From positions 1-23,328 of IMG/VR virus record IMGVR_UViG_3300028802_000058: a stretch of 23,328 bases of DNA; one strand, given 5' to 3'. The notes beneath the pieces were generated by a model. That model was not told the origin of the DNA, searched no databases, and was given only the letters and a program-made list of their open reading frames with translations. This DNA comes from a virus. Shown here piece after piece: positions 2 through 23,328 of this stretch. A program made the position numbers and the translations under genes. Position 1 is the stretch's first letter. Each line of letters opens with the position of its first letter.

Positions 2-394
2 AGAACAACTTGGGATATCACCTCAGAGAATATATTTAGTTCTGGAACCGCAGGTATCATACTCCCGGTCTATAATTCTCAAATAAATGTGTATGGCGTT
101 CCGCAGATCGCATTTGTTCCAGTAACATCTAGCGGAACCATTGTTGGCATTGCTTTGGACGCAACCGCTCAGAAAGTTTGGTTCCGATCTGACTTCGGCG
201 GCTTGGGGCCGTGGAATGGCACAGATAATATGGGCGATCCGGCAGCCGGTACAGGTTCATTAGATATCTCGGGTAATGCTGGACCCTACTATATCGCCAT
301 TGGGGCAAACGGAGAGACAAGCGCCGTTTGGACGGCGGCTTTTTCATCTTCTGGTTGGAGCTATTCTCCACCAAGCGGGTTCGGCCAATGCTGA
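2..394 (+). CDS. SPRY-like domain protein, C-terminal part (truncated by window edge)
   Basis: The frame is open from the first bases of the window, so the start lies upstream and only about 130 C-terminal residues are visible. They show the pattern of a B30.2/SPRY-like beta-sandwich: a KVWFRSDFG strand, a WNG turn, NMGDPAAGTGSLDIS, then YYIAIGANGET and a closing WSYSPPSGF. Such domains occur in phage tail and adsorption proteins, where they probably bind a ligand or partner, and a virion surface role is inferred here. An internal ATG at 89 could be mistaken for the start, but the domain pattern extends upstream of it. The stop overlaps the start of the next gene (TGATG), so the two are probably co-transcribed and translationally coupled. 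The molecular target is unknown. Confidence 0.72.
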   Translation, partial: RTTWDITSENIFSSGTAGIILPVYNSQINVYGVPQIAFVPVTSSGTIVGIALDATAQKVWFRSDFGGLGPWNGTDNMGDPAAGTGSLDISGNAGPYYIAIGANGETSAVWTAAFSSSGWSYSPPSGFGQC

Positions 395-3220: not shown

Positions 3221-3856
3221 CTAGGCAATCCGCTGCCGACGTCGAACCAGGATTGCCAACAGCGACACCGATGATCCCAAGAGCGCAAGGGATGATGGCT
3301 CGGGGACTGGTATTAGATCGCTGGCCCAATAGCCGGTGATGCGGCATGAAGTAGCGGGGCATCCGCCCCAACCTGCATCACTACTGATGTCAGCGAATGG
3401 TCCAATACCAGAATTGACCGTTAAAAATCCATCGGCATAGTCAACACCAACTGATAAAAGTTGTGCTTCAACTTCATTCCAAGACAAATGTAAGTATGCC
3501 ACCGGTAATATAGCATTAAGTATACCGAGGGCGTTGACAATCTGCCCGCCTTGCACCCCAAGTATGCGAAACAAAAATCCAGGATCGGTAGTTGTGATAA
3601 AGCCGCTCAAGCCGATCCCAGGTTGGAAGGTTGGGTTCCACTCAGCATGACCCGTGGTTGTAGAGTCGGATAAAGTTAGACTCATCAGTACAATTGGTTG
3701 CTCCGGTGATGGAGGACATGGCCGCGCACTGCACGAGGTGAATCCGGTTTCGTAGAAACTCCATGTTATCGGATCGGCGCGGCTGGGGGTTGGGATCGCG
3801 AGCCCGATAAGGGTTAAAGCGAAAGAAATTATGTAGCTCCGTGGGATACGTTTCAT
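3221..3856 (-). CDS. PEP-CTERM sorting domain secreted protein
   Basis: 211 residues. The start is the ATG at 3856, with GGAGG nine bases upstream (3866-3870), rather than a longer frame from 4051. Residues 1-27 form a Sec signal peptide (MKRIPRS, hydrophobic core, cleavage after PSRA). The mature part has two closely spaced Cys pairs (SCSARPC and GCPATSC) that may form disulfides. Residues 184-211 are a classic PEP-CTERM tail: VPEPSSLALLG, a hydrophobic helix, then RRRQRIA. In this family the tail is recognised by a host exosortase (EpsH type), which cleaves it and delivers the protein to the cell surface or exopolysaccharide. The mature domain is not recognised. The gene runs against the surrounding late genes and has lower GC, as expected of a cargo (moron) gene; a role in surface modification or superinfection exclusion is inference only. 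Confidence 0.88.
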   Translation of the reverse strand: MKRIPRSYIISFALTLIGLAIPTPSRADPITWSFYETGFTSCSARPCPPSPEQPIVLMSLTLSDSTTTGHAEWNPTFQPGIGLSGFITTTDPGFLFRILGVQGGQIVNALGILNAILPVAYLHLSWNEVEAQLLSVGVDYADGFLTVNSGIGPFADISSDAGWGGCPATSCRITGYWASDLIPVPEPSSLALLGSSVSLLAILVRRRQRIA

Positions 3857-3983
3857 TTCGGGGGGCCTCCGAATGCGCTTATGAGCCCGGCAGGCTGCTG
3901 GGGGCGCCCTGCGGGCCGACTTCCGGAACAGTGCGGGCCGTTTTAGGGATAATTGCAACAGGTTTTCCACAATGGGAGCGTGC
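3857..3983. promoter_or_regulatory. Divergent intergenic region, candidate promoters
   Basis: This is the only divergent gap in the late region, between the minus-strand PEP-CTERM gene and the plus-strand neck and tail genes. It contains an AT-rich stretch at about 3941-3972 within otherwise GC-rich DNA, a reasonable place for a promoter serving one or both directions. No convincing -35/-10 pair was identified. The right part of the gap carries GGGAG before the next gene's ATG, and the left part the GGAGG of the PEP-CTERM gene. Confidence 0.3.
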
Positions 3984-4484
3984 ATGATGGTGCGGCTTCT
4001 GGGCGCGCTCGCCGCGCTGCTGCTGCTCGCGTCGTCGGCGCTGGCGGTCAACGGGCGCGTCTACAATCTGGGCGACGCCAGCATATCCGCGGCCGTCACC
4101 AATCAGGTTATCACGAGCGGCGTGTCGGCGCAGAGCGTGGCCATCGCCTATGTCGACCGGCTGGACGGCATGTCTGCGGTCACGTTCCAGGCCAATTTCA
4201 CGTATGGCAGCGCGGGCACAAATTTGAAGGTCGACCTGGAAACGTCGATCGACCAAGGGACCTCGTGGCTTCCGATCTGCCGGATCGCATTCACGACTGC
4301 CAGCGCCGAGAAGGTCGCGACGGTCAGCGGGTTGACCCCAAAGACGACCGCGGCCGCCCTGTCGGTGCCATCCGACGATGCGTGCACAGACGGCGTGCTC
4401 GGCGATCGCCTACGTGTGCGGATCACAAGCACCGGTACCTACTCCGGGAACACTGCCATTTCGACCCGCGCCGCGGTGCGCTGA
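3984..4484 (+). CDS. Phage protein with N-terminal signal peptide, virion-associated candidate
   Basis: 166 residues from the ATG at 3984; ATGs at 3972 and 3987 are in frame, and GGGAG at 3975-3979 sits closest to 3984. The start MMVRLLGALAALLLLASSALA is a textbook signal sequence, followed by a beta-rich domain with AVTFQANFTYGSAGTNLKV, SIDQGTSWLPICRIAF and GDRLRVRITSTGTY. The latter pattern resembles small proteins seen next to neck genes in alphaproteobacterial phages (recollection, not searched) and might be a jelly-roll or Ig-like sheet. The gene opens the neck/tail run, two bases before the next gene, so it is probably part of the late operon. Why a virion-module protein would carry a signal peptide is unclear. 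Function is not assigned. Confidence 0.68.
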   Translation: MMVRLLGALAALLLLASSALAVNGRVYNLGDASISAAVTNQVITSGVSAQSVAIAYVDRLDGMSAVTFQANFTYGSAGTNLKVDLETSIDQGTSWLPICRIAFTTASAEKVATVSGLTPKTTAAALSVPSDDACTDGVLGDRLRVRITSTGTYSGNTAISTRAAVR

Positions 4485-4485
4485 G

Positions 4486-4827
4486 ATGCCGGTCGAGCAG
4501 ACCCGATCGCTCTACAGGAGGACCCTAACCTGGCAGATAGCAATCCGCCGCTACACCGGTACGGGGCAGAATAGGCCGTCCTTCGATTGGCCCTGTGGAA
4601 GCAGGGTTATGCCGACGGCTCAGGCCAATGAGCTTATCGGCGGCATAGTCGAGCAAACAAAAACCGTGCGTGTGAATGCCGAGGATCTGGTGAACGGACA
4701 ATTCCCGTTGCCGATAACAATGGCGGACAAGCTCGTTGACGAGGGGCGAGAGACGGCGATCCTCGCGGTCGCAACTCTGCGCGACGGTGGTGTGACGGTC
4801 GGATACGATTTGAAGATTAAGGGCTGA
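4486..4827 (+). CDS. Head-closure (stopper)-like protein
   Basis: 113 residues, starting one base after the previous stop (TGAGATG), with no strong ribosome binding site, so translational coupling is likely. The pattern IRRYTGTGQNRPSFD, then ELIGGIVEQ, VNAEDL, FPLPITMADKL and a final VGYDLKIKG is what I associate with short proteins encoded just before HK97 gp10-like neck proteins in alphaproteobacterial phages. The position between the capsid side and the neck protein, and the size, fit a head-completion stopper that seals the connector after packaging. An ATG at 4610 would remove the conserved-looking N-terminal third and is less likely. An AGGAGG at 4516-4521 inside the gene has no useful start behind it. 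The assignment rests on gene order and remembered resemblance. Confidence 0.66.
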   Translation: MPVEQTRSLYRRTLTWQIAIRRYTGTGQNRPSFDWPCGSRVMPTAQANELIGGIVEQTKTVRVNAEDLVNGQFPLPITMADKLVDEGRETAILAVATLRDGGVTVGYDLKIKG

Positions 4828-5510
4828 TGCCGAGCTCCGCCCTTCAAGCGCTGCGAAGGAAAGTCACTATCGACTGGCCCCAGCAGATTCAGACCGACGG
4901 GAAGGCCCTGCTGCTGCGCGCCGCACGCGAGGGGCATGCGCGGATCATGCGAGAGCAAACTGCCCGCGCCGGTGTGATCCCGGAATTCGACGCCTACGCG
5001 AATAACCCCGGGAATGACAATCTCGATAGCGTCCGGCTACCCGGCCCGATCGTTTACCGGTACCGATATCGGCGCGAGGTCATGCTGGCAGCGAAGGAGC
5101 TTCTTGAAAAGGGATCGCCGGTCGATTCCGGGGCCTATAAGCGGAGTCACGCCAGATACGACGATCGTCAGCCCACATCTTGGAATGCCCCGATGCGTCC
5201 GGGGGTTTCCATCTTGATTTCAAACCCGGTTCCCTACGCGCGACGCTTAGAAATCGGCAAAACCGAGTCGGGCCGCAATTTCCTGATCAGCAAGCCCAAT
5301 CGGCTGTATGAGCGAACCGCCAAGCAACTGCAGGCGCGGTACCGGAATGTGGCGAAGATTACATTCGGCTTTGTCACTTTGCCGGGGGCGCATGTCATCA
5401 AAGGCGGGCTTGGAGCCAGCTATTCGGCCGGTGGCCGGCGCCGGCAACGGCGGCAGCGTAAGGGAAGCGAGGCTCCGTCTCCGGCGATTTTCATCGAGAT
5501 GATCTCGTGA
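4827..5510 (+). CDS. HK97 gp10-like neck / tail-completion protein
   Basis: 227 residues; the start ATG overlaps the previous stop (TGATG). The central part carries the HK97 gp10-like signature: a helix with AAKELLEKGSPVDSGAYKRSH (the common 'PVDTG..R.S' element), then a strand-turn ISNPVPYARRLEIG, followed by a helix with RLYERTAKQLQARY. Members of this family sit at the head-tail interface and take part in tail attachment. The protein is longer than the usual 130-170 residues, with an N-terminal extension of about 80 residues and a very basic C-terminal segment (GGRRRQRRQRKGSE). It sits between the stopper-like gene and the tail terminator, the canonical position. Its stop overlaps the GTG of the next gene. 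Confidence 0.78.
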   Translation: MPSSALQALRRKVTIDWPQQIQTDGKALLLRAAREGHARIMREQTARAGVIPEFDAYANNPGNDNLDSVRLPGPIVYRYRYRREVMLAAKELLEKGSPVDSGAYKRSHARYDDRQPTSWNAPMRPGVSILISNPVPYARRLEIGKTESGRNFLISKPNRLYERTAKQLQARYRNVAKITFGFVTLPGAHVIKGGLGASYSAGGRRRQRRQRKGSEAPSPAIFIEMIS

Positions 5511-5965
5511 GTTCGATCGCTGATGCTTATGCGGCCCTGCGCACGAGGCTGGAAGGTGGAATGTCAATCCCGCTGCGGTGGTATGGCGAGGACGCGGATT
5601 CCGAAGGAAACGTGCCGCTGCCGGATACGCCGGCACCGTTTGCGTATGCCGACGTTGATAGTGATCCGGGCGAGATTATCGCTTATGGCGGCGGCCAGGG
5701 TGCCAATCTCTATTTGAACCCGATTAGGGTTGAGCTTTTCGTCTTTGTCCCCAGCGGAGTGGGCTTGCCTGTCGCGCTTGGATATGCGGAAACCGCCGCC
5801 GCTTTGTTTCGATCTTATCGCGATGCGCACATTTCGGTCGCTTCGGCGACTGTGCGGCCTGGCGGCGATGGTAGCCAGTTGCGGCCGCCCGGGCTCGCCT
5901 CCGAGGTCGATAATTACATCTTCGCCGCCGTCGAGGTCGATCTGCATTTCTACCAGATCGGTTAG
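5507..5965 (+). CDS. Tail terminator protein (gpU-like)
   Basis: 152 residues, GTG start overlapping the preceding TGA (GTGA). The sequence begins with a helix (IADAYAALRTRLEGG), followed by alternating strands including FAYADVDS, NPIRVELFVFVPSG, a helix GYAETAAALFRSYRD, and a final strand AAVEVDLHFYQIG. This alpha/beta arrangement, the length and the location directly before the tail tube gene match tail terminators of siphophages, which cap the growing tube and provide the surface that joins the head. The family is very diverse in sequence, so the call depends partly on synteny. It ends the tightly overlapping neck block; the next gene follows after a 132-base gap. Confidence 0.74.
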   Translation: MSSIADAYAALRTRLEGGMSIPLRWYGEDADSEGNVPLPDTPAPFAYADVDSDPGEIIAYGGGQGANLYLNPIRVELFVFVPSGVGLPVALGYAETAAALFRSYRDAHISVASATVRPGGDGSQLRPPGLASEVDNYIFAAVEVDLHFYQIG

Positions 5966-6097: not shown

Positions 6098-7366
6098 ATG
6101 ACGACGGGAGTCCTCGCGGAAGGCGTCTTTGCCCGGATCGTTTACAAGGCCTATGCGACCGGCGTTATTACGACTAACGCCGAGCCGGACCCCACCGTTG
6201 ATCCGGTAGGCAGCAGTGGCGGCGAGGTTCTGCGGCGCGTCTCCACCACCTTATCGCTTGCCAAAGATACCTATCAGTCGAACGAGTTGCGCGAAGATCA
6301 GCAGCTCGTCACGTTTCGTCACGGCCTGCGGCGGGCAACGGGCGAGATCGCGGGCGAATTTTCACCTCGCAGCTATTTTCCGCTAATCGAGGCGGCTACG
6401 CGCGGCACAAAATCAGCAGCAATCAGCCTAACCGAGGCCGATCTGACTAGTTGCGCAGCTGACAATACGACCAGCAAATTCACCTTCGCCTCGGGCAGCC
6501 CGACCACGCTCGGATTACGGGTCGGCGATATCATTCGTTACGGTAGCCTCTCGGACAGTGACAACAACGGCAAGAACTTCCTTGTGTTGTCGTTTGGCGG
6601 CACCTCTAATCGGGAGTTAACCGTCTATCCGGCGCCCGATACGATGAGCGCTGACACGGCATTTACGTTGACCAGTAATGGCGCGACCGGCAAGGCGATC
6701 ATCTTGCCATCGACCGGCTTGGTGAAGCGCAAATTTGCCTTTGAGGTCCATCATCAGGACACCGATTTTTCTCGACTTTTCACCGAGTGCCGGATCGGTG
6801 GGTTCACCCTCTCGTTGCCGGCCACCGGCATGTCGACGATCCAAATCCCGGTCTTGGGCCGCAACCAGGTCGATTTTGAGGACGCCGCTTGCCCGTTTTT
6901 CGTCTCGCCTACGGCATCGACCACGACGGACGTGTTCGAGGCGGTCAATGGTCTCCTGGTTGTCGACGGGACGGCCGTTGGGGTCGTGACTGGTATTACC
7001 GTGACCCTCAACCGCAGCCCAAGCTCGGACGCGGTTGTCGGCCAGAACTTTGCGCCGGAAGTTTTCACCGGCACGGGCAACGTCACCGGCCAGATCACCG
7101 CAATGTTTGAAAGCGGCACGCTGGTGGACAATTTTGTGAACGAGGATGAAGTCAGCGTTCTTGTTTACCTAAAAACCACCAACGCGGTCGGCTCGCCGGC
7201 GGTGTCTATCCATTTGCCGCGGGTGAAGTTTGGCGCTGCGAATGTCGCGATCCAGGGCCAGGGGGCGCAAACCGTCACCCTGCCGTTTCAGGCCCTGAGA
7301 TTCGTCGGTTCGACTGCCGGGTTTGAAAGCACCACGATGCGCATGGTTGACACCGAAGCCGTATAA
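6098..7366 (+). CDS. Major tail (tube) protein
   Basis: 422 residues; ATG at 6098 with AGGAG nine bases upstream (6084-6088). It is placed between the tail terminator and the tail assembly chaperones, where the tail tube gene always lies in siphophages. The sequence is strand-rich, with many Thr/Ser/Gly and pieces such as LSLAKDTYQSNEL, VTFRHGLRRATGEIAGEFSP, KFAFEVHHQD and FALTLS-type strands, consistent with the beta-barrel tube fold. It forms the hexameric rings around the tape measure protein. It is longer than typical tube proteins (about 150-250 residues), so there is likely an extra domain; residues about 230-380 (VNGLLVVDGTAVGVVTGITV...) look like a repeated tube-type domain or a surface decoration. 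A hairpin cluster follows the gene. Confidence 0.82.
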   Translation: MTTGVLAEGVFARIVYKAYATGVITTNAEPDPTVDPVGSSGGEVLRRVSTTLSLAKDTYQSNELREDQQLVTFRHGLRRATGEIAGEFSPRSYFPLIEAATRGTKSAAISLTEADLTSCAADNTTSKFTFASGSPTTLGLRVGDIIRYGSLSDSDNNGKNFLVLSFGGTSNRELTVYPAPDTMSADTAFTLTSNGATGKAIILPSTGLVKRKFAFEVHHQDTDFSRLFTECRIGGFTLSLPATGMSTIQIPVLGRNQVDFEDAACPFFVSPTASTTTDVFEAVNGLLVVDGTAVGVVTGITVTLNRSPSSDAVVGQNFAPEVFTGTGNVTGQITAMFESGTLVDNFVNEDEVSVLVYLKTTNAVGSPAVSIHLPRVKFGAANVAIQGQGAQTVTLPFQALRFVGSTAGFESTTMRMVDTEAV

Positions 7367-7951: not shown

Positions 7952-8385
7952 TCGAGTGGGCCGAATACGAGTTTCGGTCCAATCGTAGGACGGGCGACGG
8001 GGCGACGGAGCGGGATCACGACGATAGCGGGAGGCGGCAATTAGAGGCGTTTTCCGCAGTCCTTCGGCCCAAGGCACGTAAATCCGAGATTGTAGAGCCG
8101 GACGACCGGCCGCGCTTTCCCACTGAACTCGCCTACCTCTGGCGATGGTTCACCCAGATTTCATTTGGGCTCACGCCGACCGGGTTTGCCCCACCGGTGG
8201 TGACATGGGAAGCCATTCGCGCCTGGCAGATCCTGATGGATATCGGGCCGCTCGCGCCTTGGGAGGCTACGGCGCTGGTTCATCTCGGCGTGCTCCGGGC
8301 ATCGATCCAATCTCAGAAAGCCGAAAGCGAGCGGCGGATAAGCGGCTCCGAGCAATCTGGTTCATCTCCTAGACGAAAGCGGTAA
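7481..8385 (+). CDS. Tail assembly chaperone frameshift product (gpGT-like)
   Basis: A second frame, -1 relative to the upstream chaperone, is open from 7795 to the TAA at 8385 but has no credible start near its beginning. Ribosomes slipping at AAATTTC (7921-7927) would continue from 149 residues of the first frame into 152 more, giving about 301 residues. The added domain reads EFRSNRR, a charged linker, then PTELAYLWRWFTQISFG, VTWEAIRAWQILMDIGP and a basic end (SPRRKR). As in lambda, the extension (T domain) is expected to contact tube subunits while the G part holds the tape measure. The tape measure gene begins two bases after its stop. The frameshift is inferred from the frame layout and slippery site; efficiency is unknown. 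Confidence 0.78.
7921..7927 (+). promoter_or_regulatory. Slippery heptamer for -1 ribosomal frameshifting
   Basis: The heptamer reads A AAT TTC in the zero frame and fits the canonical X XXY YYZ pattern. Both tRNAs can re-pair as AAA TTT after slipping back one base. It lies 24 bases before the zero-frame stop and inside the overlap with the -1 frame. Downstream, GGCCTCG (7933-7939) can pair with CGAG plus GCC around 7953-7962, a possible stimulatory stem with a small bulge, not tested. Confidence 0.75.
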
Positions 8386-8386
8386 T

Positions 8387-11300
8387 TTGACAGAGGTCGT
8401 CGAGACTGCGGTTTACAACATCGCAGTCAAGGGATTGCAGGATATCCAGAACGCTGACGCGTTGCTGGCGAAGCTTGCTGTCTCCGAAGAGAGGGTCACA
8501 CAAGGCACCCGGACGCACGCCGACGGCGTCGATCGCCTCATTGCACGGTACAGCGCCCAGGCGAGGGCCGAGAATGACCTGATCAAAAGTCTGGAGACAC
8601 TGGCAAGATACGAGCAAGAGGGCATCAGCACCGAGGAAAAGCGGGGGCAGGCCGCTCTCCTGGCGACGCAGAGATACAATGAGCAGGTCGCCACGCTCGG
8701 CAAGCACACGACCGCCGTCAACGACAATAGCAAGGCAGCTGGCGCCGCCGTCGTTTCTGCCGGGCAACTGCGCTTCGCGGTCCAGAACCTTGGCTTCCAG
8801 CTCAACGACATCGCGACATCGCTTGCGAGCGGCGGCAGCCCGATGCGCGTCCTGGCGCAGCAGGCCGGGCAGGTCCAGCAGGCGTTCCAACAGGGCGGCG
8901 GGCCAAGTGCCGTGCTGCGCGGGTTTGGCTCGTCGATCGCATCTCTGATCACCCCGACGACCGCCGCCGTCGCCGGCGTGGTCGCGCTGGCCGGCGGGGT
9001 TTTGCTCTTGGGCGGCCGAGCCAGCGAAACCGAAGCGCGGCTTCGCACATTCAATGTCATCCTGAAAGGCATGGGCGATAGCGGCGATGCAACGGCTGAG
9101 GGTCTGGATCAGGTCGTAAAAGGACTACGGAATACCGGCACCGCCGCAGAGGACGCCCTGAAGGCGGTACAAGCTTTTGCACGAGTGCCGGGCATCAATC
9201 GAGGTTCTGCGGCTACATTATTGCCCCTGGCTCGCGATATCGGCGCGGTGAACGGGCAGGACATCGCCACCCTTGGTACCAGAATGGCGACGGCCTTTGC
9301 TCAGGGAACTGATGCTGCCATTAAACTCGCTTTTGAACTGGCCGGGCCGAATGGCCTGTCGGTTGCGCAGGCCGCGAGCGCCCGCGCCTTCGATGCGCAG
9401 GGCAATCGAGCGGCGGCGGCAATCGTCATCATCGACGCCCTAAAGAAACGGTTCGACGGCAGCTTTCAGAATTCGCTCTCCGACAGCGCGAAATCGATAA
9501 ATAGCATCGGCGCGGCTTGGTCGAACATGCTCGACAAGCTGTCTGACACCAAGGCCGTGGGCTTCGCCAGGGACGCTGTGATCGGGATGCTGAACGGGAT
9601 CGCCAAGGCTGCGGCCGGCGGCGGAAGCACCGCCACTGCTGCGACCGTCAGGCCCGACGGGACGCCACAATCACCAGCGCCGGCCGGGTTTAAACGAGAC
9701 GTGACCGGCAGGTTGATTCGGGATTTCAATCAGCCGGAAGCCGGCATGGCACCGGACCTGGCAATTGGTGGCGCCCTGACCGGGCCAATTACACCGGAAT
9801 TGATCCGCTCAATGATCCGGGTGGAGAGCGGCGGCAATCCTAACTTAACCTCTCCCGCAGGCGCGTCTGGGTTGATGGGTTTGAGGCCCGGCACCGCTCG
9901 CAGTCTTGGCGTCAGTGACGTGTTCAACCCCACTGAGAACGTGAATGCTGGAATCAAATACATCACCGAGCTTGTTCAGAAGTTCGGGCTAGAGGGCGGT
10001 CTAGCTGCCTACAACATGGGGCCGGGGAACTATCAGAAGTTTCTCGACGGCATAAAGCCGATGCCGTTGGAGACGCAGAAATACGTTCCCAACGTTCTCG
10101 CGGGCGCCGGGGTCTCATTCGGCAGCGGCACCTTCCGTAACATCCCGGGTGGCGGTGGCAACGTCCTGCCGAGGGTTTCGGTCGATGCAAATTCTCCGGT
10201 CCCCGCTGAGGCTAGCAACGAAAACCTAGCCAACCTAGACAAGTGGCGTGAGTCGCAAGAGAAGATCAATAAGGCTCTAGCAGAAACCGGCGAACGCGCG
10301 ATCTACGCAAAGACCTACGCAGACTCTCTGGCGAGTTCAGCTCTATCTGGTAACGAGAAAGAATGGGAGGCGCAGCTTCGCGCTTCGGATGCGGTAGAGA
10401 AGTTCCGTATCGAACTGAAAAAGGCATCCGACACACAAGACCTCACCACCCAAGGCATCATAAAGACCGCCGCAGCGTACCAACAAGGTTTAGTCCCCGG
10501 CCTAAAGTCAGCGGCAGAGGAACAGGCCAAGCTTGACGTGCGTCTCGGTAATGCCACCGATGTGGGTGCGCGCACTCAGCAATTATTGAAGGCGAGCGCG
10601 GCGGCGGCGATCGACTCCGCCGCCAAGGCTATCCCAGAGTTAGCTAAACAGGCCGAGGCTTCGGAGAAGCTTGCTGCTGCAGCTAAGAACGGTACCGGTG
10701 CGCAGCACGAGGCAGAGCTACAGAACCAAGCTACTGCCGCTACACACAACGCCCTGGCGGCTGCGGAGGCAACTGGCAACGGGGCGCTGATCGCGCAGGC
10801 CAAGGCGCTTACCGAATCCACTCTTGCGCAGATCAAAAAGAACGACGCGGCGCAGACGGCGTTGCTGCTTCAGCAAGGTATCAACTCGAACAACAATCAG
10901 ATCGAAATCCTGAAACTGGAGACGTCACTTCAGGGGCAGACCACCGAGGAAATCTCGCGGCAGGTTGCGCTGCTTCAGGCGAAGCAGCTGTTGCAGAGCA
11001 AGAACGTCGACCTCGCGAGCGACGAGGCCAAGCAATATCTGGCCAGCACCGACCAGTTGGAGCGAGCGAAGATCGCACTCGCAGAAACCCAGCGTTCGGC
11101 TCAAGCCCTGAATGACGTGTTCCGTTCGATCGGAGAGACCATCGCCACAAGCATAACGGACGCGATTACCGGTCTGTTCGACAAGAAAAAGGTCGTGGAC
11201 TGGGGCACCCAGATTAAGACCGTCGTCTCGGGGTTGGCGAGCCAGCTAATCAGTGGAGGTCTCGTCAGGCCGGCGATCGGATCGGTCCTCTCGGGTCTTG

Positions 11301-13321
11301 GTTTAGGTGCGGCCGCGCAGAATTTCGGCACGCTTGGCGGCACGTTTAACGCAATCAGCAATATCGGCGGCGGCGGTTCTTCGGGTACCGGGGCAAGCGG
11401 CAGTAGTGGCGGTATCGGCAACGTGCTCCAGGGCGGCGGTCTGTTGAAAGACCTGTTCGGCATAGACCTGGGTAGCGGCGGCATCGGGGGGGCGTTTAAC
11501 TCATTCGGGGCGAAGCTTGGCTTTGCCACCGGCCCCAATACCGCAACTGGCGTTGACATCCCCGGCTCCCTGTTCGGAAACACCACACTTGGTGGGTTTG
11601 CGGGCGGAGTAGGGGCCGGCTTTGGTGCAGGCTCGCTGCTCAACAGACTGATAGGCGGCAATTCTGTCGGCGGCACGATCGGCAGCGGTCTAGGTTCTCT
11701 GGCGGGCGCAGGCATAGGTTCTCTCTTCGGCGGCCCGCTGATCGGCGGTCTCCTCGGTGGCGTCCTGGGCGGGCCTCTGGGCGGCCTCTTCGGTGGCAAC
11801 CGGAAGCCAGACAACGCCAGCGGAGGCGTCATCAATCTCGCCACTGGCGGCATCTCGAACGTGCAGTCCGGCGGCAACCCGCAGAACGACCAAACCGCCA
11901 GCCAGATCGGCACCGCTCTCGCCGCCACCGTTACGAGGGCGCTCCAAATCCCCGGCGCACAGCTGCCGGGTGGCGCTGTTGGCATTCAGGCGGGCACTAG
12001 GGACGGCATCAAGCTCAGCTTCGGCGGGCAAGAGCAAACATTCAAAGACGCCACAAGCGCTATTGCGTTCGGCCTCAACGCGCTCCGCGATAACCTCACG
12101 GGCGTCAGTGACACCGTGCAAAAAGTGCTGCACTCGATTGGCGATCCCGCGCAAGTCGAGGCCGCTCTAGCGTTTGCGGATACCTATGATCGGCTAAAGG
12201 ATGCCGCCGCCTCTGCCTTCTCGGAGGTCGAGAAGGGCACCAACACTATCGGCCCCTTCGAAACCGCGATGAGCCAAATCAACGCGCAATTCCAAGCTCT
12301 AAAAGATGGGGCAACCCAATATGGACTTTCGCTTGATCCGGTAATCGCGGCGCAGGACGAGGCAACTAAACGACTGCGCCAAGATTTTAGCGATGCGGTT
12401 GATCTCTACACCGGCAACGATACGACCAACGCCATCAAGACTATCCTCGACAACTATAAGGCGATTACGCGTGAGGCGTCCGCTGTCGGGGCTACCGACA
12501 AAGCTACGGGTGACAGGTTAGGCAACACCTTCCTTGGGCAGGCGGGTGCCGCACTCAGCACTCTTGGGCCGGATCAATTGAGGGAAGTACAGGCGCGGTT
12601 TGGGGGTTTGAATTCCGGCCTGGATGAGATGACCAAGGCCCTGATCGCCGCTGGGGGTGGCGCCCAATACGTCGCCGACGCGGCCCAAAAGGCGGCCGAC
12701 GAGCAGGTAGCGGCGGCTAAAGCCATAGCCGACGCTGGGACTCAACTCGCCCAGCAAATGAAGCCGTTGCAAGATTTGGTCGCGGAACTGACTACCGGCA
12801 AGTCATCCGGCCTTACTATCGCTGCGCAGGTGAACGCCGCGAACGACAACTTCCAGCGGGAGCTGTCCCTGGTGAGGGGCGGAAACCTGGATGAGACAGG
12901 CAACCTCGCCACGGCCGGGCAGAACGCCGTGACTCTCTCCCAGCAGGCTTATGGCAACTCCGCAAAGACGGCTCAGCTACGCGCCTCGATCGTGCAGGGT
13001 GTTGATAGCGTTCTGAAGGGCAAGGGCTTTGCCGAGGGTGGCGACCCTGACCCAGGTTGGAACCTCGTCGGCGAGCGTGGCCCCGAATGGCTGCATCTAC
13101 CGGGCGGGTCAATGGTTCTCCCGAATGGCACTTCAGTGGGCGGATCGTCCTCGATGGAGGTCGCTGGCTTGCTGCGCGAGGTGATTGGACTGCTCAAGGG
13201 CAACAACGCGATCAACCGGGAACATGGCGCCGTCAGCGAGCGTGGGTTCGAGAAGGTGACGGACGCATTGTCCGCACCGCCAAAGATTATCGAAGCTCCG
13301 CCTCGGAAGAAGGTGGCGTAA
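8387..13321 (+). CDS. Tape measure protein with embedded lytic transglycosylase
   Basis: 1644 residues, TTG start one base after the chaperone stop. It is the longest gene in the window and lies in the tape measure position. Residues about 120-170 (LRFAVQNLGFQLNDIATSL, then MRVLAQQAGQVQQAF) match prophage tail length tape measure proteins (TMP_2 type), followed by a hydrophobic segment at about 189-209. Residues about 468-575 are a lysozyme-like SLT domain with catalytic Glu480 in IRVESGGNP, ASGLMG, and AAYNMGPGNYQ around 542. Long Ala/Gln-rich coiled-coil stretches follow, then a Gly-rich hydrophobic zone at about 1000-1140, probably membrane-active. The end has the usual FAEGGDPDPGWNLVGERGPEWLHLPGG-type motif. 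The protein sets tail length, fills the tube and, through the SLT domain, probably opens peptidoglycan during DNA entry. Confidence 0.92.
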   Translation: MTEVVETAVYNIAVKGLQDIQNADALLAKLAVSEERVTQGTRTHADGVDRLIARYSAQARAENDLIKSLETLARYEQEGISTEEKRGQAALLATQRYNEQVATLGKHTTAVNDNSKAAGAAVVSAGQLRFAVQNLGFQLNDIATSLASGGSPMRVLAQQAGQVQQAFQQGGGPSAVLRGFGSSIASLITPTTAAVAGVVALAGGVLLLGGRASETEARLRTFNVILKGMGDSGDATAEGLDQVVKGLRNTGTAAEDALKAVQAFARVPGINRGSAATLLPLARDIGAVNGQDIATLGTRMATAFAQGTDAAIKLAFELAGPNGLSVAQAASARAFDAQGNRAAAAIVIIDALKKRFDGSFQNSLSDSAKSINSIGAAWSNMLDKLSDTKAVGFARDAVIGMLNGIAKAAAGGGSTATAATVRPDGTPQSPAPAGFKRDVTGRLIRDFNQPEAGMAPDLAIGGALTGPITPELIRSMIRVESGGNPNLTSPAGASGLMGLRPGTARSLGVSDVFNPTENVNAGIKYITELVQKFGLEGGLAAYNMGPGNYQKFLDGIKPMPLETQKYVPNVLAGAGVSFGSGTFRNIPGGGGNVLPRVSVDANSPVPAEASNENLANLDKWRESQEKINKALAETGERAIYAKTYADSLASSALSGNEKEWEAQLRASDAVEKFRIELKKASDTQDLTTQGIIKTAAAYQQGLVPGLKSAAEEQAKLDVRLGNATDVGARTQQLLKASAAAAIDSAAKAIPELAKQAEASEKLAAAAKNGTGAQHEAELQNQATAATHNALAAAEATGNGALIAQAKALTESTLAQIKKNDAAQTALLLQQGINSNNNQIEILKLETSLQGQTTEEISRQVALLQAKQLLQSKNVDLASDEAKQYLASTDQLERAKIALAETQRSAQALNDVFRSIGETIATSITDAITGLFDKKKVVDWGTQIKTVVSGLASQLISGGLVRPAIGSVLSGLGLGAAAQNFGTLGGTFNAISNIGGGGSSGTGASGSSGGIGNVLQGGGLLKDLFGIDLGSGGIGGAFNSFGAKLGFATGPNTATGVDIPGSLFGNTTLGGFAGGVGAGFGAGSLLNRLIGGNSVGGTIGSGLGSLAGAGIGSLFGGPLIGGLLGGVLGGPLGGLFGGNRKPDNASGGVINLATGGISNVQSGGNPQNDQTASQIGTALAATVTRALQIPGAQLPGGAVGIQAGTRDGIKLSFGGQEQTFKDATSAIAFGLNALRDNLTGVSDTVQKVLHSIGDPAQVEAALAFADTYDRLKDAAASAFSEVEKGTNTIGPFETAMSQINAQFQALKDGATQYGLSLDPVIAAQDEATKRLRQDFSDAVDLYTGNDTTNAIKTILDNYKAITREASAVGATDKATGDRLGNTFLGQAGAALSTLGPDQLREVQARFGGLNSGLDEMTKALIAAGGGAQYVADAAQKAADEQVAAAKAIADAGTQLAQQMKPLQDLVAELTTGKSSGLTIAAQVNAANDNFQRELSLVRGGNLDETGNLATAGQNAVTLSQQAYGNSAKTAQLRASIVQGVDSVLKGKGFAEGGDPDPGWNLVGERGPEWLHLPGGSMVLPNGTSVGGSSSMEVAGLLREVIGLLKGNNAINREHGAVSERGFEKVTDALSAPPKIIEAPPRKKVA

Positions 13322-14895: not shown

Positions 14896-16653
14896 ATGGC
14901 TAATACTCGAATCTCATCCCTAGACACCATCACAGACCCGGAAAACTTGTACGTCACCGGGATCGATTTGACACGTTCTGTTGGGCACCAGAATGTAAAG
15001 ATCAGCACACCCGATCTTGTGTCGGGCGCAACTGCCGGCACTCAGCTTTACGTCGAGACGCACAATGGGATAACGCTGCTGGGAGATAGTTTTGCGCTCT
15101 CACCGTTGATTACTCCCGATGATGCGGACCCGGCCGATGTGTTTCTCGAACACCTGGAGATCGGGGTGGCCGCGCTGGCGGGAGGGTATTACGATTTTGA
15201 AATTTACTGCGGAACCTTAGAAGACCCACATGGCTCTACTCCCATATATAAATTCAGCACTGATACCGGATCGTCGGGATTTATTGCCAATAACTACATC
15301 CAATCAGTTAGGTTTATTCTAGGGAAGAGCCTGTTTTTACCGTTTTCTTTTGCTGGGTCGAACAATTGGTACATTCAATTTTTGAACCAATCTGGAGACC
15401 CTACGATCTTCAACATCCAGGCTGTCTACAGCAAGTTCGACGCTCTTGGTGCAGAACTGGTGGCTGGGTATGAAGATCCAGATCCGTATTCTGGGCCGCT
15501 ATTTGACGACGTGTACGTTGGCCCCACCAGAACTGCCAACACGGGAGACCAGTACACGGAGCCGATGTATGCCATGTCGGCGATTGCTGATGGCGGAACG
15601 ATGCACGTTGATGCCGGGAGATACTACCGCGTGTTTGGGGTAGCAAATACCGGCGATACGTCCTTCGCGGAGTTCCGTAACTTCGGGTCAAACACCGCCC
15701 AACTACCAGCGGGCGCGGCAAGGTTCTCGACCGGAATAACCATCAGCGGCGCTGGGACGTTAGGGGCGGAAGGGACGCGAACCATCTTTAACGGCCAGGG
15801 CGGCGTTGGCAATGGTCACCGGCTTACATTCGGGAAGGCGTTTGTGTATTGTCGGGCGCCGGTCACGTTTAACGATATCCAGTTCATCAACTGCGGCGGC
15901 GCTGATGGGGTTGGCGATGGCGAGGCGGCTATTTACCCGGAAGCGTTCCTTGTCGACGGCAACCTGACGGTCAATAGGTGCGCCTTCGACGGAAATGAAC
16001 AGGGTGTATTTGCGCCGTTTATTGGAGGGGGCGGCTTAGGTCTGCACGTTAGCGTGTATCTGAATTATTGTGACTTTGGTTACGAAGTATCTAATGCACA
16101 AGCTAGGGACGGATTCTCTCACGACGTATACCTTCAGTGCAATTATGTTTTCATAGATCACTGCAATTTCTATGGGTGCGAATTTGGCAATCAGGTCAAA
16201 TGCCGCTCTCCAAATTTGACGATCACCAACTCCTATATACGGGCAGTAAGTGGCCGGTGTATCGACTATCCTGATGGCGGCGCCCTTAATGTTAGCGATA
16301 CAATTCTTGATCAGCGCACGGATTGCAACGGCAACTACCTCGCTTACGCTAACGAGGGTCTTGAGCACACATACGCAGACCCTGTATTTACCGATTGTAC
16401 ATTGAGGATAAACAGGTTCGACACAGCGATATGGATGTTGGATTCAGATCCAGACCATAAGTTTGTATTCATTGATCCCATCTTAGAGTTCTATCAGGGG
16501 GACAGCATTCGACCAACCATCATACCGACACGGGCGGGTGGCACAGGCATCTTTGATGATACGGTAGTAGTAGGGTTTACGAACTTCGACCCCGGCGGGA
16601 TTGGAACTTGGCCGGTCCCTCCTGCGCCACCAGCGCCAGCTTCCTGGCCGTAA
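14896..16653 (+). CDS. Tailspike-like protein with right-handed beta-helix
   Basis: 585 residues, ATG at 14896 with only a weak ribosome binding site. The N-terminal part (MANTRISSLDTITDP, then VTGIDLTRSVGHQNVKIS) is the type that anchors spikes and fibres to the tail tip. From about residue 270 to 520 there are short repeating strands with Asn/Cys/Ile ladders (FVYCRAPVTFNDIQFINCGG, NLTVNRCAFDGNEQ, LHVSVYLNYCDFG, NYVFIDHCNFYGC, NLTITNSYIRAV), the hallmark of a pectate-lyase-like parallel beta-helix. The C-terminus ends in a Pro-rich tail (PVPPAPPAPASWP). Such spikes bind and often cleave surface polysaccharide; catalytic residues cannot be picked from sequence alone. Several parts (about 15230-15420 and 16060-16450) are AT-richer than neighbouring genes, as expected for a frequently exchanged receptor-binding gene. 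Confidence 0.8.
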   Translation: MANTRISSLDTITDPENLYVTGIDLTRSVGHQNVKISTPDLVSGATAGTQLYVETHNGITLLGDSFALSPLITPDDADPADVFLEHLEIGVAALAGGYYDFEIYCGTLEDPHGSTPIYKFSTDTGSSGFIANNYIQSVRFILGKSLFLPFSFAGSNNWYIQFLNQSGDPTIFNIQAVYSKFDALGAELVAGYEDPDPYSGPLFDDVYVGPTRTANTGDQYTEPMYAMSAIADGGTMHVDAGRYYRVFGVANTGDTSFAEFRNFGSNTAQLPAGAARFSTGITISGAGTLGAEGTRTIFNGQGGVGNGHRLTFGKAFVYCRAPVTFNDIQFINCGGADGVGDGEAAIYPEAFLVDGNLTVNRCAFDGNEQGVFAPFIGGGGLGLHVSVYLNYCDFGYEVSNAQARDGFSHDVYLQCNYVFIDHCNFYGCEFGNQVKCRSPNLTITNSYIRAVSGRCIDYPDGGALNVSDTILDQRTDCNGNYLAYANEGLEHTYADPVFTDCTLRINRFDTAIWMLDSDPDHKFVFIDPILEFYQGDSIRPTIIPTRAGGTGIFDDTVVVGFTNFDPGGIGTWPVPPAPPAPASWP

Positions 16654-17965: not shown

Positions 17966-18486
17966 GCGGCGGATACATAGTTGTCGCCGTTCTCGGGATC
18001 GCGATCGTTACTCTAGTCTTTGGTGGCGGCATGGCACTCAAAGGCGATGTCTCGATCCTTGCCGCGCCATGGCTCGGGCACGGGCGAGCGGTCGAATGTT
18101 TCCTGACGTGCGTCGCGGCGATGCAGGGCCTTATATTGCTGTTCGATACGACTGCCGCCTATGACAGCAAGGCTACCGTCGATCTGGCGTGGTGGGGCTA
18201 TGGGCAATGGCTCGCCCTGCCGTTTCTGGTTAAGGCTACCCTTTCCGGGTCGGGCCTGATTTTCAATATCCACGGGCTTCCTTATTCCCGTGCCCTGCGG
18301 TTTTCTGGGGCGTTCGTCGGCTGCATGATCTGGACCTGGTACGCGGCGAAGCTTCTCCTGCTCGGCGCCCCGGCGGCGATGGGGACGCCGTTCTGCATTA
18401 TGTCCGCGCTGTTCAGCATGCGGATCATGGGACTGGCTCTGGCGGGACTGCCGCGGCCCGGTGCACCGGGAGCGATGGGCCTGTGA
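17962..18486 (+). CDS. Integral membrane protein, partner of the preceding gene
   Basis: 174 residues from the ATG at 17962, which overlaps the upstream stop; the much longer frame from 17662 is the preceding gene read in another frame. About four to five hydrophobic spans are visible: near 5-27 (YIVVAVLGIAIVTLVFGGG), 45-65 (CFLTCVAAMQGLILLF), 75-95, 106-130 (FVGCMIWTWYAAKLLLLGA) and 138-160. It is coupled on both sides by four-base overlaps (ATGA and GTGA), so three small membrane proteins are made from one translational unit. The product is unrecognised; a membrane complex active at lysis or at DNA entry is possible. Confidence 0.6.
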   Translation: MSGGYIVVAVLGIAIVTLVFGGGMALKGDVSILAAPWLGHGRAVECFLTCVAAMQGLILLFDTTAAYDSKATVDLAWWGYGQWLALPFLVKATLSGSGLIFNIHGLPYSRALRFSGAFVGCMIWTWYAAKLLLLGAPAAMGTPFCIMSALFSMRIMGLALAGLPRPGAPGAMGL

Positions 18487-18815
18487 CCGCCGGGGATCTG
18501 GTCGCAAACCCGAATTTCATCCCAACGATAGGCGCAGCAATCGTCGCGGCGCTCGGCGCCCTATACGGCATCAGGATGAAATGGCGCCTGGATCGGGTTG
18601 ACCCGATCGCTGCCGGTTTGGGCGCGCAAATCACGGGCTGGAAAGAACTTGTCGAGAGCGTGGCCAAGGAGCTCGGCGAGGTCCGCGAAGAGCTTCGGCA
18701 GTGCCGCGCCGACAGCACCCGACTTGAAAACGAAAACGGCGCGCTTCGGCACCGATTGATCATCGTCGAGGGGCGCCTTACCACCCTTGAGCGCGCGGCG
18801 GATACGACGCTCTAA
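18483..18815 (+). CDS. Membrane-anchored coiled-coil protein, spanin- or holin-like
   Basis: 110 residues, GTG start overlapping the previous TGA. There is one hydrophobic span at about 10-30 (NFIPTIGAAIVAALGALYG), followed by a long amphipathic helix at about 50-105 with heptad character (WKELVESVAKELGEVREELRQ, then LENENGALRHRLIIVEGRL). One N-terminal membrane anchor and a coiled coil immediately before the endolysin is the architecture of inner-membrane spanins (Rz-like) and of some accessory lysis proteins, and also of several uncharacterised phage proteins. No lipoprotein partner lies inside or beside it; the nearest is at 20659. Function is inferred from topology and position. Confidence 0.58.
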   Translation: MTAGDLVANPNFIPTIGAAIVAALGALYGIRMKWRLDRVDPIAAGLGAQITGWKELVESVAKELGEVREELRQCRADSTRLENENGALRHRLIIVEGRLTTLERAADTTL

Positions 18816-18816
18816 C

Positions 18817-18845
18817 CCCGGGTTTCCTGAAACCCCGGTTTCGTG
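18817..18845 (+). terminator. Imperfect hairpin between membrane proteins and endolysin
   Basis: CCGGGTTT and AAACCCCGG (around 18818-18838) can pair with one bulged base and a four-base loop, and a T-run (GGTTTCG) follows. The sequence GGTTTC-N-TGAAAC also occurs twice in tandem (18821-18833 and 18837-18849), each copy itself an inverted repeat. Weak termination, or a regulatory element in front of the endolysin, is possible. Confidence 0.35.
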
Positions 18846-18867
18846 AAACTAAAAAGGATTCACACAG

Positions 18868-19578
18868 ATGCCGATCACGATGCCGCCCTTGCCGGTACCC
18901 TTCGCCGAGCGCGGATGGTGGCTGATCAACGCGCTGAAAGACAAGTTCGATCTCACGTTGAATCAAGCGGCGGCGATCGTCGGCAACCTCGGTTTCGAGA
19001 GCGGCGGGCTGAAGATCATGCAAGAGATCGCGCCGGTAGGTGGCGGTCGCGGCGGCTATGGGTGGGCTCAGTGGACCGGCCCGCGCCGGCTTGCCTACGA
19101 GGCATGGTGCCGCAATCAGGGCCTGGCTGCATCAAGTGACGAAGCGAATTACCGATACCTCTGTGTCGAGCTTCAAAGCTCGCACAAATACGTGATGGCC
19201 GCGCTGCGCAAAGAGACGGAACTTGGCCGCTGCGTCTTCGTCTTCGGGAGGCTGTACGAAGCGCCAGGAGGTACGACCGAAACGCATCTGCCCGGCTACG
19301 ATGGCCGGCTTAACTACGCGCAACAGGGGCTTGCCGGGGGCAAGCCGCCGATCATCATCGGTGCGCCGAAAGCAGACGCCCCCGCGGCGCTGCCGGGTTC
19401 GGATGATCCCGAGCAAGAGCAGCCCGACGACTACGACTACACCGCGATCATCCGGACGGCCGAGGCGCTGCAGCTCCAGCTGCGCGATGCGGGCCTCTAC
19501 GACGGCGAGATTGACGGGGCGTTCGGGCCGAACAGCTCCGCCGCGGCGATGCAGGCGTGGCGTATGGCGAAGGGCTAA
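18868..19578 (+). CDS. Endolysin: phage-tail-lysozyme-like muramidase with peptidoglycan-binding domain
   Basis: 236 residues; ATG at 18868 with AAAAAGGA about ten bases upstream. Residues about 12-150 match the phage tail lysozyme type (Phage_lysozyme2): NQAAAIVGNLGFESGG with the likely catalytic Glu44, then GGGRGGYGWAQWTGPRR (residues 58-74). A linker rich in Asp/Glu/Pro follows. Residues about 194-236 form a truncated PG_binding_1 repeat (IIRTAEALQLQLRDAG, LYDGEIDGAFGPNS, AAAMQAW) that would hold the enzyme on peptidoglycan. No signal peptide is present, so release depends on a holin. It is preceded by three membrane proteins and followed by a holin-like gene, forming the lysis cassette. 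Cleavage specificity is not shown by the sequence. Confidence 0.85.
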   Translation: MPITMPPLPVPFAERGWWLINALKDKFDLTLNQAAAIVGNLGFESGGLKIMQEIAPVGGGRGGYGWAQWTGPRRLAYEAWCRNQGLAASSDEANYRYLCVELQSSHKYVMAALRKETELGRCVFVFGRLYEAPGGTTETHLPGYDGRLNYAQQGLAGGKPPIIIGAPKADAPAALPGSDDPEQEQPDDYDYTAIIRTAEALQLQLRDAGLYDGEIDGAFGPNSSAAAMQAWRMAKG

Positions 19579-21962: not shown

Positions 21963-22145
21963 CTATTCTGCGGGCGTTATCCGGACATTCCATGGTTCAT
22001 GATCTTCTAAGGCCACCGCGATCCGATTGAGCGCGCGAGATATCGCGAATAACCCATCGACAACATTGGCAGCTTCCCCGTTTCGATCGCTTTCGTTTGG
22101 GCTAATGAGAGTCTCACTCAGTACCCTTGCCGTCTCTTTGGTCAT
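21963..22145 (-). CDS. Small protein translationally coupled to the integrase
   Basis: 60 residues. Its ATG at 22145 overlaps the integrase stop (TGATG), so it is translated together with the integrase. It is helical and acidic (KETARVLSETLISPNESDRNGEAANVVDGLFAISRALNRIAVALEDHEP), with no membrane span or HTH that I can recognise. The 3' end of the gene contains the third TTATCCGGAC repeat, so its coding sequence overlaps the proposed P arm of attP. It may assist or regulate recombination, but that is inferred from position only. Confidence 0.62.
   Translation of the reverse strand: MTKETARVLSETLISPNESDRNGEAANVVDGLFAISRALNRIAVALEDHEPWNVRITPAE
21975..21986. repeat. Arm-type repeat, right of the att core
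   Basis: CGTTATCCGGAC matches the tandem 12-mers at 21779-21803 in 11 of 12 positions and in the same orientation. It is located about 75 bases beyond the tRNA-derived core, within the end of the small gene coupled to the integrase. It would be the opposite arm for integrase binding. Confidence 0.5.
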
Positions 22146-23194
22146 CAGTCCATTACCTTCCTGGCCGCTCTCAAAAACTCGGGCGAGTGGTGCGCATACA
22201 ACTCAGTCGTCCGCTGCGTGCTGTGCCCGAGCCAGCCGCCGACAATGCGGAGATCGACGCCGGCCTGCGCGAGCCAAGTCCCGGCAGTATGACGAAGCGT
22301 GTTCGGGATTACGCCCACGAGCGCAGCCCGCGCACAGGCGTTGCGGAAGGCCCGCTTGACGCTGGCGAGCTTCTGGCCCTTGTAGGCCAGCACATACGGC
22401 GACGTGGCCCGTGCGTGCGCTCGCAGCAGGAACCAGCGCAACCGGCGCGGCATGGAGATGATGGGCCGTCGCTTCGCCGTCTGCCGGCGGCCGGGCGGGT
22501 TGAAGTCGATGCGGTCGCGGTCGAAATCAATCTGTGTCCAGCGGAGATCGAATAGCGCGCCGCTTCGGGCGCCAGTGGCGAGCCCGAGCAGTATGAATAG
22601 CGGTAAGTGATCGCGCGCTTCCGGCCATCGGCGGCTTTCCCACAGCAGCCGAGCCGCCTCGCTGCGGCTCAACCATCGGTCACGCCCCGGCGATCGTCCC
22701 GGCAACTCGACAAACGGTCTGTCGACCAGCTTGCCGTTGCGGTGCGCGTAGCCGAGCGCGGCACGCAGCACGCTCAATTCGCGGGCGGCGGTTGAGGATG
22801 CCACGCTGAAGGTGCGGGCCTTCACGTAGGCCCGGCACGTCTCCGGTTTCACGTAATCGCAGGGCCGGTCGCCCCACCACGACAGCAGCGCCTTGATGGC
22901 GTAATGAACCGTCGCCGGCGCCGAGGTGTGCTCGGCCGCATGTTCATCGGCATAGATCGCGAGCACGTCGGCTATGCTTGCCTGAGATGAACGACGGGGG
23001 CCATCCCATCGGACCGGGCCGGGGTCTCGCTTTTCGAGCCATTCGGCGATCGCTTGATGAGCCTCCGCGAGATCGCGAGTGCCCGTTGAACGCTCCCGAC
23101 TTCGGCCGGTTTGTTCGTCGGTCCAGTAGATGTAGAAAGTGCCGCCGCGCTTTTGGTTTGGCCGGAGCTTCGGGCCTTCGGGTGGACGGGACAC
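22145..23194 (-). CDS. int: Tyrosine recombinase (phage integrase)
   Basis: 349 residues from the GTG at 23194, chosen because AGGAGG lies seven bases upstream; the ATG at 23212 has no ribosome binding site. The N-terminal part (GGTFYIYWTDEQTGRSRERSTGT) is arm-binding-like, residues about 70-155 are the core-binding SAM-like domain, and the rest is the catalytic domain. Active-site residues: Arg210 (ATGARSGAL), Lys241 (RQTAKRRP), Arg301 in NTLRHT, His324 (GWLGHS) and the nucleophile Tyr333 (TTELYAHHSPE). The HxxR box has Asn298 in place of His. The enzyme recombines attP with the host attB, here most likely a tRNA-Thr(GGT) gene. It runs in one operon with the HTH gene upstream and the small gene downstream. 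Confidence 0.92.
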   Translation of the reverse strand: MSRPPEGPKLRPNQKRGGTFYIYWTDEQTGRSRERSTGTRDLAEAHQAIAEWLEKRDPGPVRWDGPRRSSQASIADVLAIYADEHAAEHTSAPATVHYAIKALLSWWGDRPCDYVKPETCRAYVKARTFSVASSTAARELSVLRAALGYAHRNGKLVDRPFVELPGRSPGRDRWLSRSEAARLLWESRRWPEARDHLPLFILLGLATGARSGALFDLRWTQIDFDRDRIDFNPPGRRQTAKRRPIISMPRRLRWFLLRAHARATSPYVLAYKGQKLASVKRAFRNACARAALVGVIPNTLRHTAGTWLAQAGVDLRIVGGWLGHSTQRTTELYAHHSPEFLRAARKVMD

Positions 23195-23328
23195 GCAATC
23201 GCCTCCTGCCATGCAGCGAGATCGTCGGCACGATACATGATGCGGCCGGCGACTCGTCTATACCCGATCCGCCCCGCCGCCCGCTCCGAGCGCAGGGCGC
23301 GCGCGGTCACGCCGATGAGCTTGGCCGC
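22972..23328 (-). CDS. Excisionase-like HTH protein (N-terminus beyond window)
   Basis: The frame is open to the window edge, so the start lies outside. Visible residues begin AAKLIGVTARALRSERAAG and continue RIGYRRVAGRIMYRADDLAAWQ, the winged-helix (MerR/Xis-type, HTH_17-like) pattern of small excisionases and recombination directionality factors. After DLAAWQEA the frame continues for about 75 residues, most of it inside the integrase coding sequence in another frame, and ends at 22972. That tail is Ser/Pro/Lys-rich and looks like out-of-frame translation, so the functional protein may be only the first 60-odd residues with an unselected extension. It is upstream of the integrase on the same strand, as expected of xis-int pairs. 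Confidence 0.62.
   Translation of the reverse strand, partial: AAKLIGVTARALRSERAAGRIGYRRVAGRIMYRADDLAAWQEAIACPVHPKARSSGQTKSAAALSTSTGPTNKPAEVGSVQRALAISRRLIKRSPNGSKSETPARSDGMAPVVHLRQA
23202..23207 (-). promoter_or_regulatory. Ribosome binding site deciding the integrase start
   Basis: A perfect AGGAGG on the minus strand, seven bases before the GTG at 23194. It lies inside the upstream HTH gene and three bases after the alternative ATG at 23212, which it therefore cannot serve. Confidence 0.7.

Follow-up and report, generated by a model that had tools for sequence, protein, structure and literature searches.

Does a phage use the exosortase of its host to place a protein of its own in the exopolysaccharide coat of the bacterial cell? 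This question is raised by a small gene in the IMG/VR virus record IMGVR_UViG_3300028802_000058, a stretch of 23,328 nucleotides that was analysed as a whole and is referred to here as the window. The record is classified as "linear" and is probably a fragment of an uncultured temperate phage. A sequence-only reading had described the gene as encoding a secreted PEP-CTERM protein with its own strong ribosome binding site, lying inside the late region but opposite to the virion genes, and had suggested that the phage could thereby alter the surface of the lysogen or infected cell via the host sorting system, for instance to block further adsorption. The features of the window to which we refer are as follows.

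2-394, plus strand: C-terminal 130 aa of a tail-fibre/virion-like protein, cut by the contig end
387-3090, plus strand: secreted protein of about 900 aa with a twin-arginine-type leader, distant relative of PcRGLX/RIFT-barrel plus alpha/alpha-barrel proteins; the 920-aa open reading frame starts at 328 with TTG, whereas the ATG at 387 overlaps the stop of the preceding gene
3221-3856, minus strand: PEP-CTERM protein gene, 211 aa, with signal peptide (residues 1-27), a body without known relatives, VPEP motif (residues 184-187), membrane helix and basic RRRQR tail
3866-3870, minus strand: Shine-Dalgarno-like GGAGG, 9 nt before the ATG
3954-3969, minus strand: tentative sigma-54 (-24/-12)-like site TGGAAAACCTGTTGCA, 98-113 nt upstream of the ATG
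3972-4484, plus strand: small protein with an N-terminal signal-like segment, without family match and decoration-like as inferred from sequence and position; first virion-side gene to the right of the PEP-CTERM gene
4378-5965, plus strand: neck or head-tail joining genes (4378-4827; 4827-5510, Neck1-like; 5507-5965, terminator-like)
6098-7366, plus strand: tail tube protein (PF18906, phrog_290)
8387-13321, plus strand: tape measure protein with SLT domain
14896-16653, plus strand: beta-helix, tail-spike-like protein with lower GC3 (0.56)
18483-19578, plus strand: holin-like gene and tail lysozyme (PF18013)
22145-23212, minus strand: tyrosine integrase, according to which the phage is or was temperate

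First, it was examined whether the gene is real, and the observation was confirmed. The frame translates without a stop into 211 aa, beginning with MKRIPRSYIISFALTLIGLAIPTPSRA, followed by DP, and ending in VPEPSSLALLGSSVSLLAILVRRRQRIA. The tail passes the curated cut-offs of both PEP-CTERM models, with 24.2 bits for Pfam PF07589 (cut-off 20.7) and 23.4 bits for NCBIfam TIGR02595 (cut-off 16), both on residues 183-208. No other family passes its cut-off, and the PEP-CTERM subfamilies listed match only through the tail. The signal peptide was recognised by reading the sequence, and a single-sequence structure model shows helices at residues 6-20 and 187-210, but this model is unusable for the body (pLDDT below 50; pLDDT 38 for the protein).

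The second step concerned the setting. From position 4378 rightwards the window is a temperate siphovirus with neck genes, tail tube, tail assembly chaperone, tape measure, spike, lysis genes and integrase, so that a position inside the late region is certain on the right side. On the left side it is likely but more weakly supported, as the 2-394 frame gives only weak tblastn matches to phage virion structural and tail fibre proteins (E = 5e-3). In addition, the two left genes and the PEP-CTERM gene have a GC3 of 0.44-0.53 (0.49 for the PEP-CTERM gene), as opposed to 0.57-0.83 for the neck, tail-tube and tape-measure genes, although the spike gene is also low. The PEP-CTERM gene lies on the strand opposite to the flanking virion genes, between the 920-aa frame ending at 3090 and the next gene starting at 3972. 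Eighty virus contigs sharing the tail tube were retained for comparison, and the closest bacterial carriers are Hyphomicrobiales MAGs at 54-57% identity. The Neck1-like gene lies upstream of the tail tube in the window but downstream of it in all related contigs, a local change of gene order. A further virus contig of 62.8 kb (L103) encodes an integrase 74% identical to that of the window (8001-9071), which is followed by a second partial copy of the integrase N-terminus (9656-9805).

With regard to its own upstream signals, the gene has the RBS-like GGAGG, whereas an ordinary sigma-70 promoter was not convincing and no terminator was found. The sigma-54-like site has the exact GG-N10-GC spacing and scores 13 of 15.6; there are 3 such scores in both strands of the window, and 6 of 500 shuffles of the 250-nt upstream stretch, about 1%, reach this score. 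Across the viral PEP-CTERM genes described below, such sites are enriched in the 150 nt upstream (score of at least 13.5 in 7 of 67 as opposed to 4 of 576 other open reading frames, p = 2e-5), although some of the sequences are near-duplicates. Cellular pepA is RpoN-dependent (PMC9850573). For the gene of the window the promoter remains a prediction, and the evidence is suggestive only.

We then searched for relatives of the protein. None were found by sequence in viral contigs, GTDB genomes, GenBank phages or plasmids, and samples of 385 Alphaproteobacteria and 300 genomes of the Massilia order gave only tail or marginal matches. None of 48 virus records sharing the tail module holds a PEP-CTERM tail, so that in this lineage the gene is a solitary acquisition. 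The lack of relatives by sequence is typical of the family, since the bodies of cellular PEP-CTERM proteins mostly lack homologues (Haft et al., PMC1569441).

In order to find out whether other phages carry such genes, a DNA pattern for VPEPxxLALLG was run over IMG/VR, which yielded at least 119 matching stretches. Of 105 reading frames inspected, 102 end in a proper PEP-CTERM tail, and most of the full-length ones begin with a signal peptide. According to their unrelated bodies they fall into 22 families, the largest being F1 with 51 members, followed by F2 with 15, F3 with 6, F4 with 5 and smaller ones; the window protein belongs to none of them. All 39 representatives scanned, including the window protein, match TIGR02595, while no PHROG matches any of them and tblastn with the window protein and with F1 and F2 representatives finds nothing in 50,697 GenBank phages. 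The neighbouring genes include portal, major head protein, terminase, tail sheath, helicases and methyltransferases; F1 genes often neighbour DNA methyltransferase genes (5 of 58 neighbour proteins; the loci L138, L143 and others), and in several loci a small proline-rich gene precedes them. In 27 of 51 F1 loci a hallmark or head-module gene lies within about 7 kb, always on the same strand, and where both are seen the PEP-CTERM gene usually lies between portal and capsid. Close pairs show dN/dS values of 0.08-0.3, and the median over all comparable pairs is 0.42. None of 49 such virus records encodes an exosortase. Some singletons lie at contig ends and may be host flank, but F1 is not explained that way, and the idea that all such viral genes are host contamination was rejected because of the hallmark neighbours and the conserved place. 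The structure model of F1 was usable (pLDDT 76) but matched nothing in PDB or BFVD, and so gives no lead on what these proteins bind.

As the window itself encodes no exosortase either, the protein would depend on that of the host. Relatives of the tail tube and the integrase point to Alphaproteobacteria, without resolving the host further. Exosortase (PF09721) was found in 13 of 199 Hyphomicrobiales and in 23 of 200 Alphaproteobacteria. It is absent from the four Hyphomicrobiales genomes with the closest tail-tube relatives, but present in four betaproteobacterial carriers of distant ones. Ten alphaproteobacterial genomes were selected because they hold the best relatives of the integrase, the 920-aa protein or the PEP-CTERM protein, before their exosortase status was known, and 8 of them have an exosortase (Fisher p = 3.5e-6 against the 23 of 200). 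However, the genomes are not independent by descent and four of them are also among the 200, so this is a lead rather than proof.

The 920-aa neighbour may provide a further link to exopolysaccharide. Its best relative is a chromosomal protein with a twin-arginine leader (31% identity), and the two together align with three secreted alphaproteobacterial proteins of the PcRGLX/RIFT-barrel kind (hhalign probability 96.7%, E = 4e-10, 423 columns). In one genome (G464) such a protein lies in an exosortase-A locus (TIGR03109, with PrsR TIGR02915, PrsT TIGR02917 and the PEP-CTERM ATPase and deacetylase), 2 kb from a PEP-CTERM gene, and in another (G553) it lies 18 kb from the exosortase, whereas the closest relative itself (in genome G347) is not in such a locus. 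No relative of the 920-aa protein was found in phages. Both left-hand genes therefore seem to belong to the world of exosortase-linked exopolysaccharide, as proteins built into it or acting on it, and the 920-aa protein is possibly an EPS-degrading enzyme. This supports an EPS-related role, but at the same time feeds the alternative that the left part is host DNA.

Surface-modifying cargo is usual for these phages. In a related Hyphomicrobiales prophage (L083), the stretch between capsid and neck genes, which matches the slot of the PEP-CTERM gene, holds an LPS-type acetyltransferase (E = 2e-24 to a solved N-acetyltransferase) and a gene akin to the sialyltransferase-annotated gene of phage PAJU2. 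The Bradyrhizobium phage ppBdUSDA122-1 (L123) has an acyltransferase on the opposite strand directly after the tail fibre gene (27196-28320). In the related Hyphomicrobiales prophages, the genes in the major-capsid position (L083 3702-5231, L084 6532-7887, L085 6004-7503, L086 5222-6655 and L005 4260-5612), whose capsid identity was judged from position and not by a family match, start with signal-peptide-like or membrane-like segments, as does the decoration-like protein of the window, which is unusual for head proteins.

Taken together, the explanation we consider somewhat more likely than not is a phage-borne "moron", i.e., a single gene with its own upstream signals, inserted against the virion genes at the head-neck junction of a temperate siphovirus. 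In this view, the protein would be exported by Sec, held in the inner membrane by its tail helix, cut and released or anchored by the host exosortase at the VPEP motif, and so become part of the exopolysaccharide coat. There it would change how the coat is held or what can adsorb, most likely protecting the infected or lysogenic cell against further adsorption, or alternatively reducing the loss of progeny or clumping the cells. The gene, its tail and signal peptide, the phage neighbours on the right, the lack of an exosortase on the contig and the recurrence of such genes in phages are what the analysis shows; export is inferred from the signal peptide and sorting by a host exosortase from the tail and its family, while expression in the lysogen and the benefit, including any block of adsorption, remain conjecture. 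The sequence-only interpretation is thus supported in part: a bona fide PEP-CTERM protein on a phage contig, its strand and its upstream signals hold, whereas an exosortase in the actual host and a block of adsorption were not shown, and the gene did not appear in the related phages. Its remark that no well-described phage system uses this route agrees with our literature searches, which found none apart from a passing mention of viral TIGR03118 proteins (PMC11003980).

Among the alternatives, the one that survives best, although we consider it unlikely, is that the left 3.9 kb or so is bacterial DNA of an exosortase-linked polysaccharide locus beside a prophage that has lost its head genes, or a chimeric assembly. 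This is favoured by the low GC3 shared by the three left genes, the chromosomal location of the nearest relatives of the 920-aa protein, the exosortase-A locus with such a protein near a PEP-CTERM gene, and the absence of relatives of either gene in viral contigs. However, the contig edge falls where head genes are expected, which makes simple truncation of a normal phage more economical. The first frame resembles phage fibre proteins, if only weakly, and its stop overlaps the start of the 920-aa gene, the matching slot in a related prophage holds other surface-modifying genes, the spike gene also has a low GC3, and phage-borne PEP-CTERM genes are demonstrably common. Less likely still is a late-expressed envelope protein that coats receptor sites or debris so that released virions are not wasted, as is the case for Llp of phage T5; the F1 genes, on the same strand as portal and capsid genes and beside or between them, are placed as expected for late expression, but in the window the opposite strand and the own upstream signals fit expression independent of the late operon. 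A passive passenger, i.e., a recently captured host gene without benefit to the phage, is very unlikely, since, despite the lack of conservation of the body in related phages and the deviating GC3, the frame is intact and other phage-borne PEP-CTERM families are under purifying selection and keep their place in the head module.

Compared with cellular PEP-CTERM proteins sorted by exosortase (EpsH/XrtA), such as the floc protein PepA of Aquincola and Zoogloea (PMC1569441, PMC9850573), the protein shares the signal peptide, PEP motif, membrane helix, basic tail, unrelated body and, tentatively, an upstream sigma-54-like site, but it is encoded on a phage contig without exosortase or EPS-synthesis genes and its body matches no named PEP-CTERM family above its cut-off. 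With the O-acetyltransferases and glycosyltransferases of temperate phages it has in common a single gene at a module boundary, often on the opposite strand, that likely alters the host surface; however, it is not an enzyme acting on glycan but a probable structural protein depending on the host sorting enzyme. Superinfection-exclusion lipoproteins are phage-encoded exported proteins placed at the cell surface by a host sorting pathway, as is inferred for the window protein. T5 Llp is one of them, and the Streptococcus phage protein Ltp (PMC3952083) is another, but they take the lipoprotein route instead of the putative exosortase/PEP-CTERM route, and exclusion by the window protein is only a conjecture. 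The viral TIGR03118 proteins of hot-spring virus contigs (PMC11003980) also have a putative exosortase-interaction tail, but belong to a different family and are mentioned there only as horizontally acquired genes of unknown function.

Surface-altering phage cargo is thus already known as such, while the route via the host exosortase and its frequency in phages appear to be new. It is about as likely as not that phages of exosortase-bearing bacteria carry a widespread class of exosortase substrates with many unrelated bodies, often fixed in the capsid/portal gene region, and use the exosortase of the host to place their own proteins in the exopolysaccharide coat, a so far undescribed route of surface remodelling of which this gene would be one instance. 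What PEP-CTERM proteins do is still poorly known. Recurrent phage-borne copies, kept under purifying selection in the head modules of diverse phages, would point to the exosortase-built coat as a phage barrier or receptor layer and provide defined single-gene tools to test it, and they would add a protein-sorting route to the ways in which phages alter host surfaces, which have so far been known mainly for glycan enzymes and lipoproteins.
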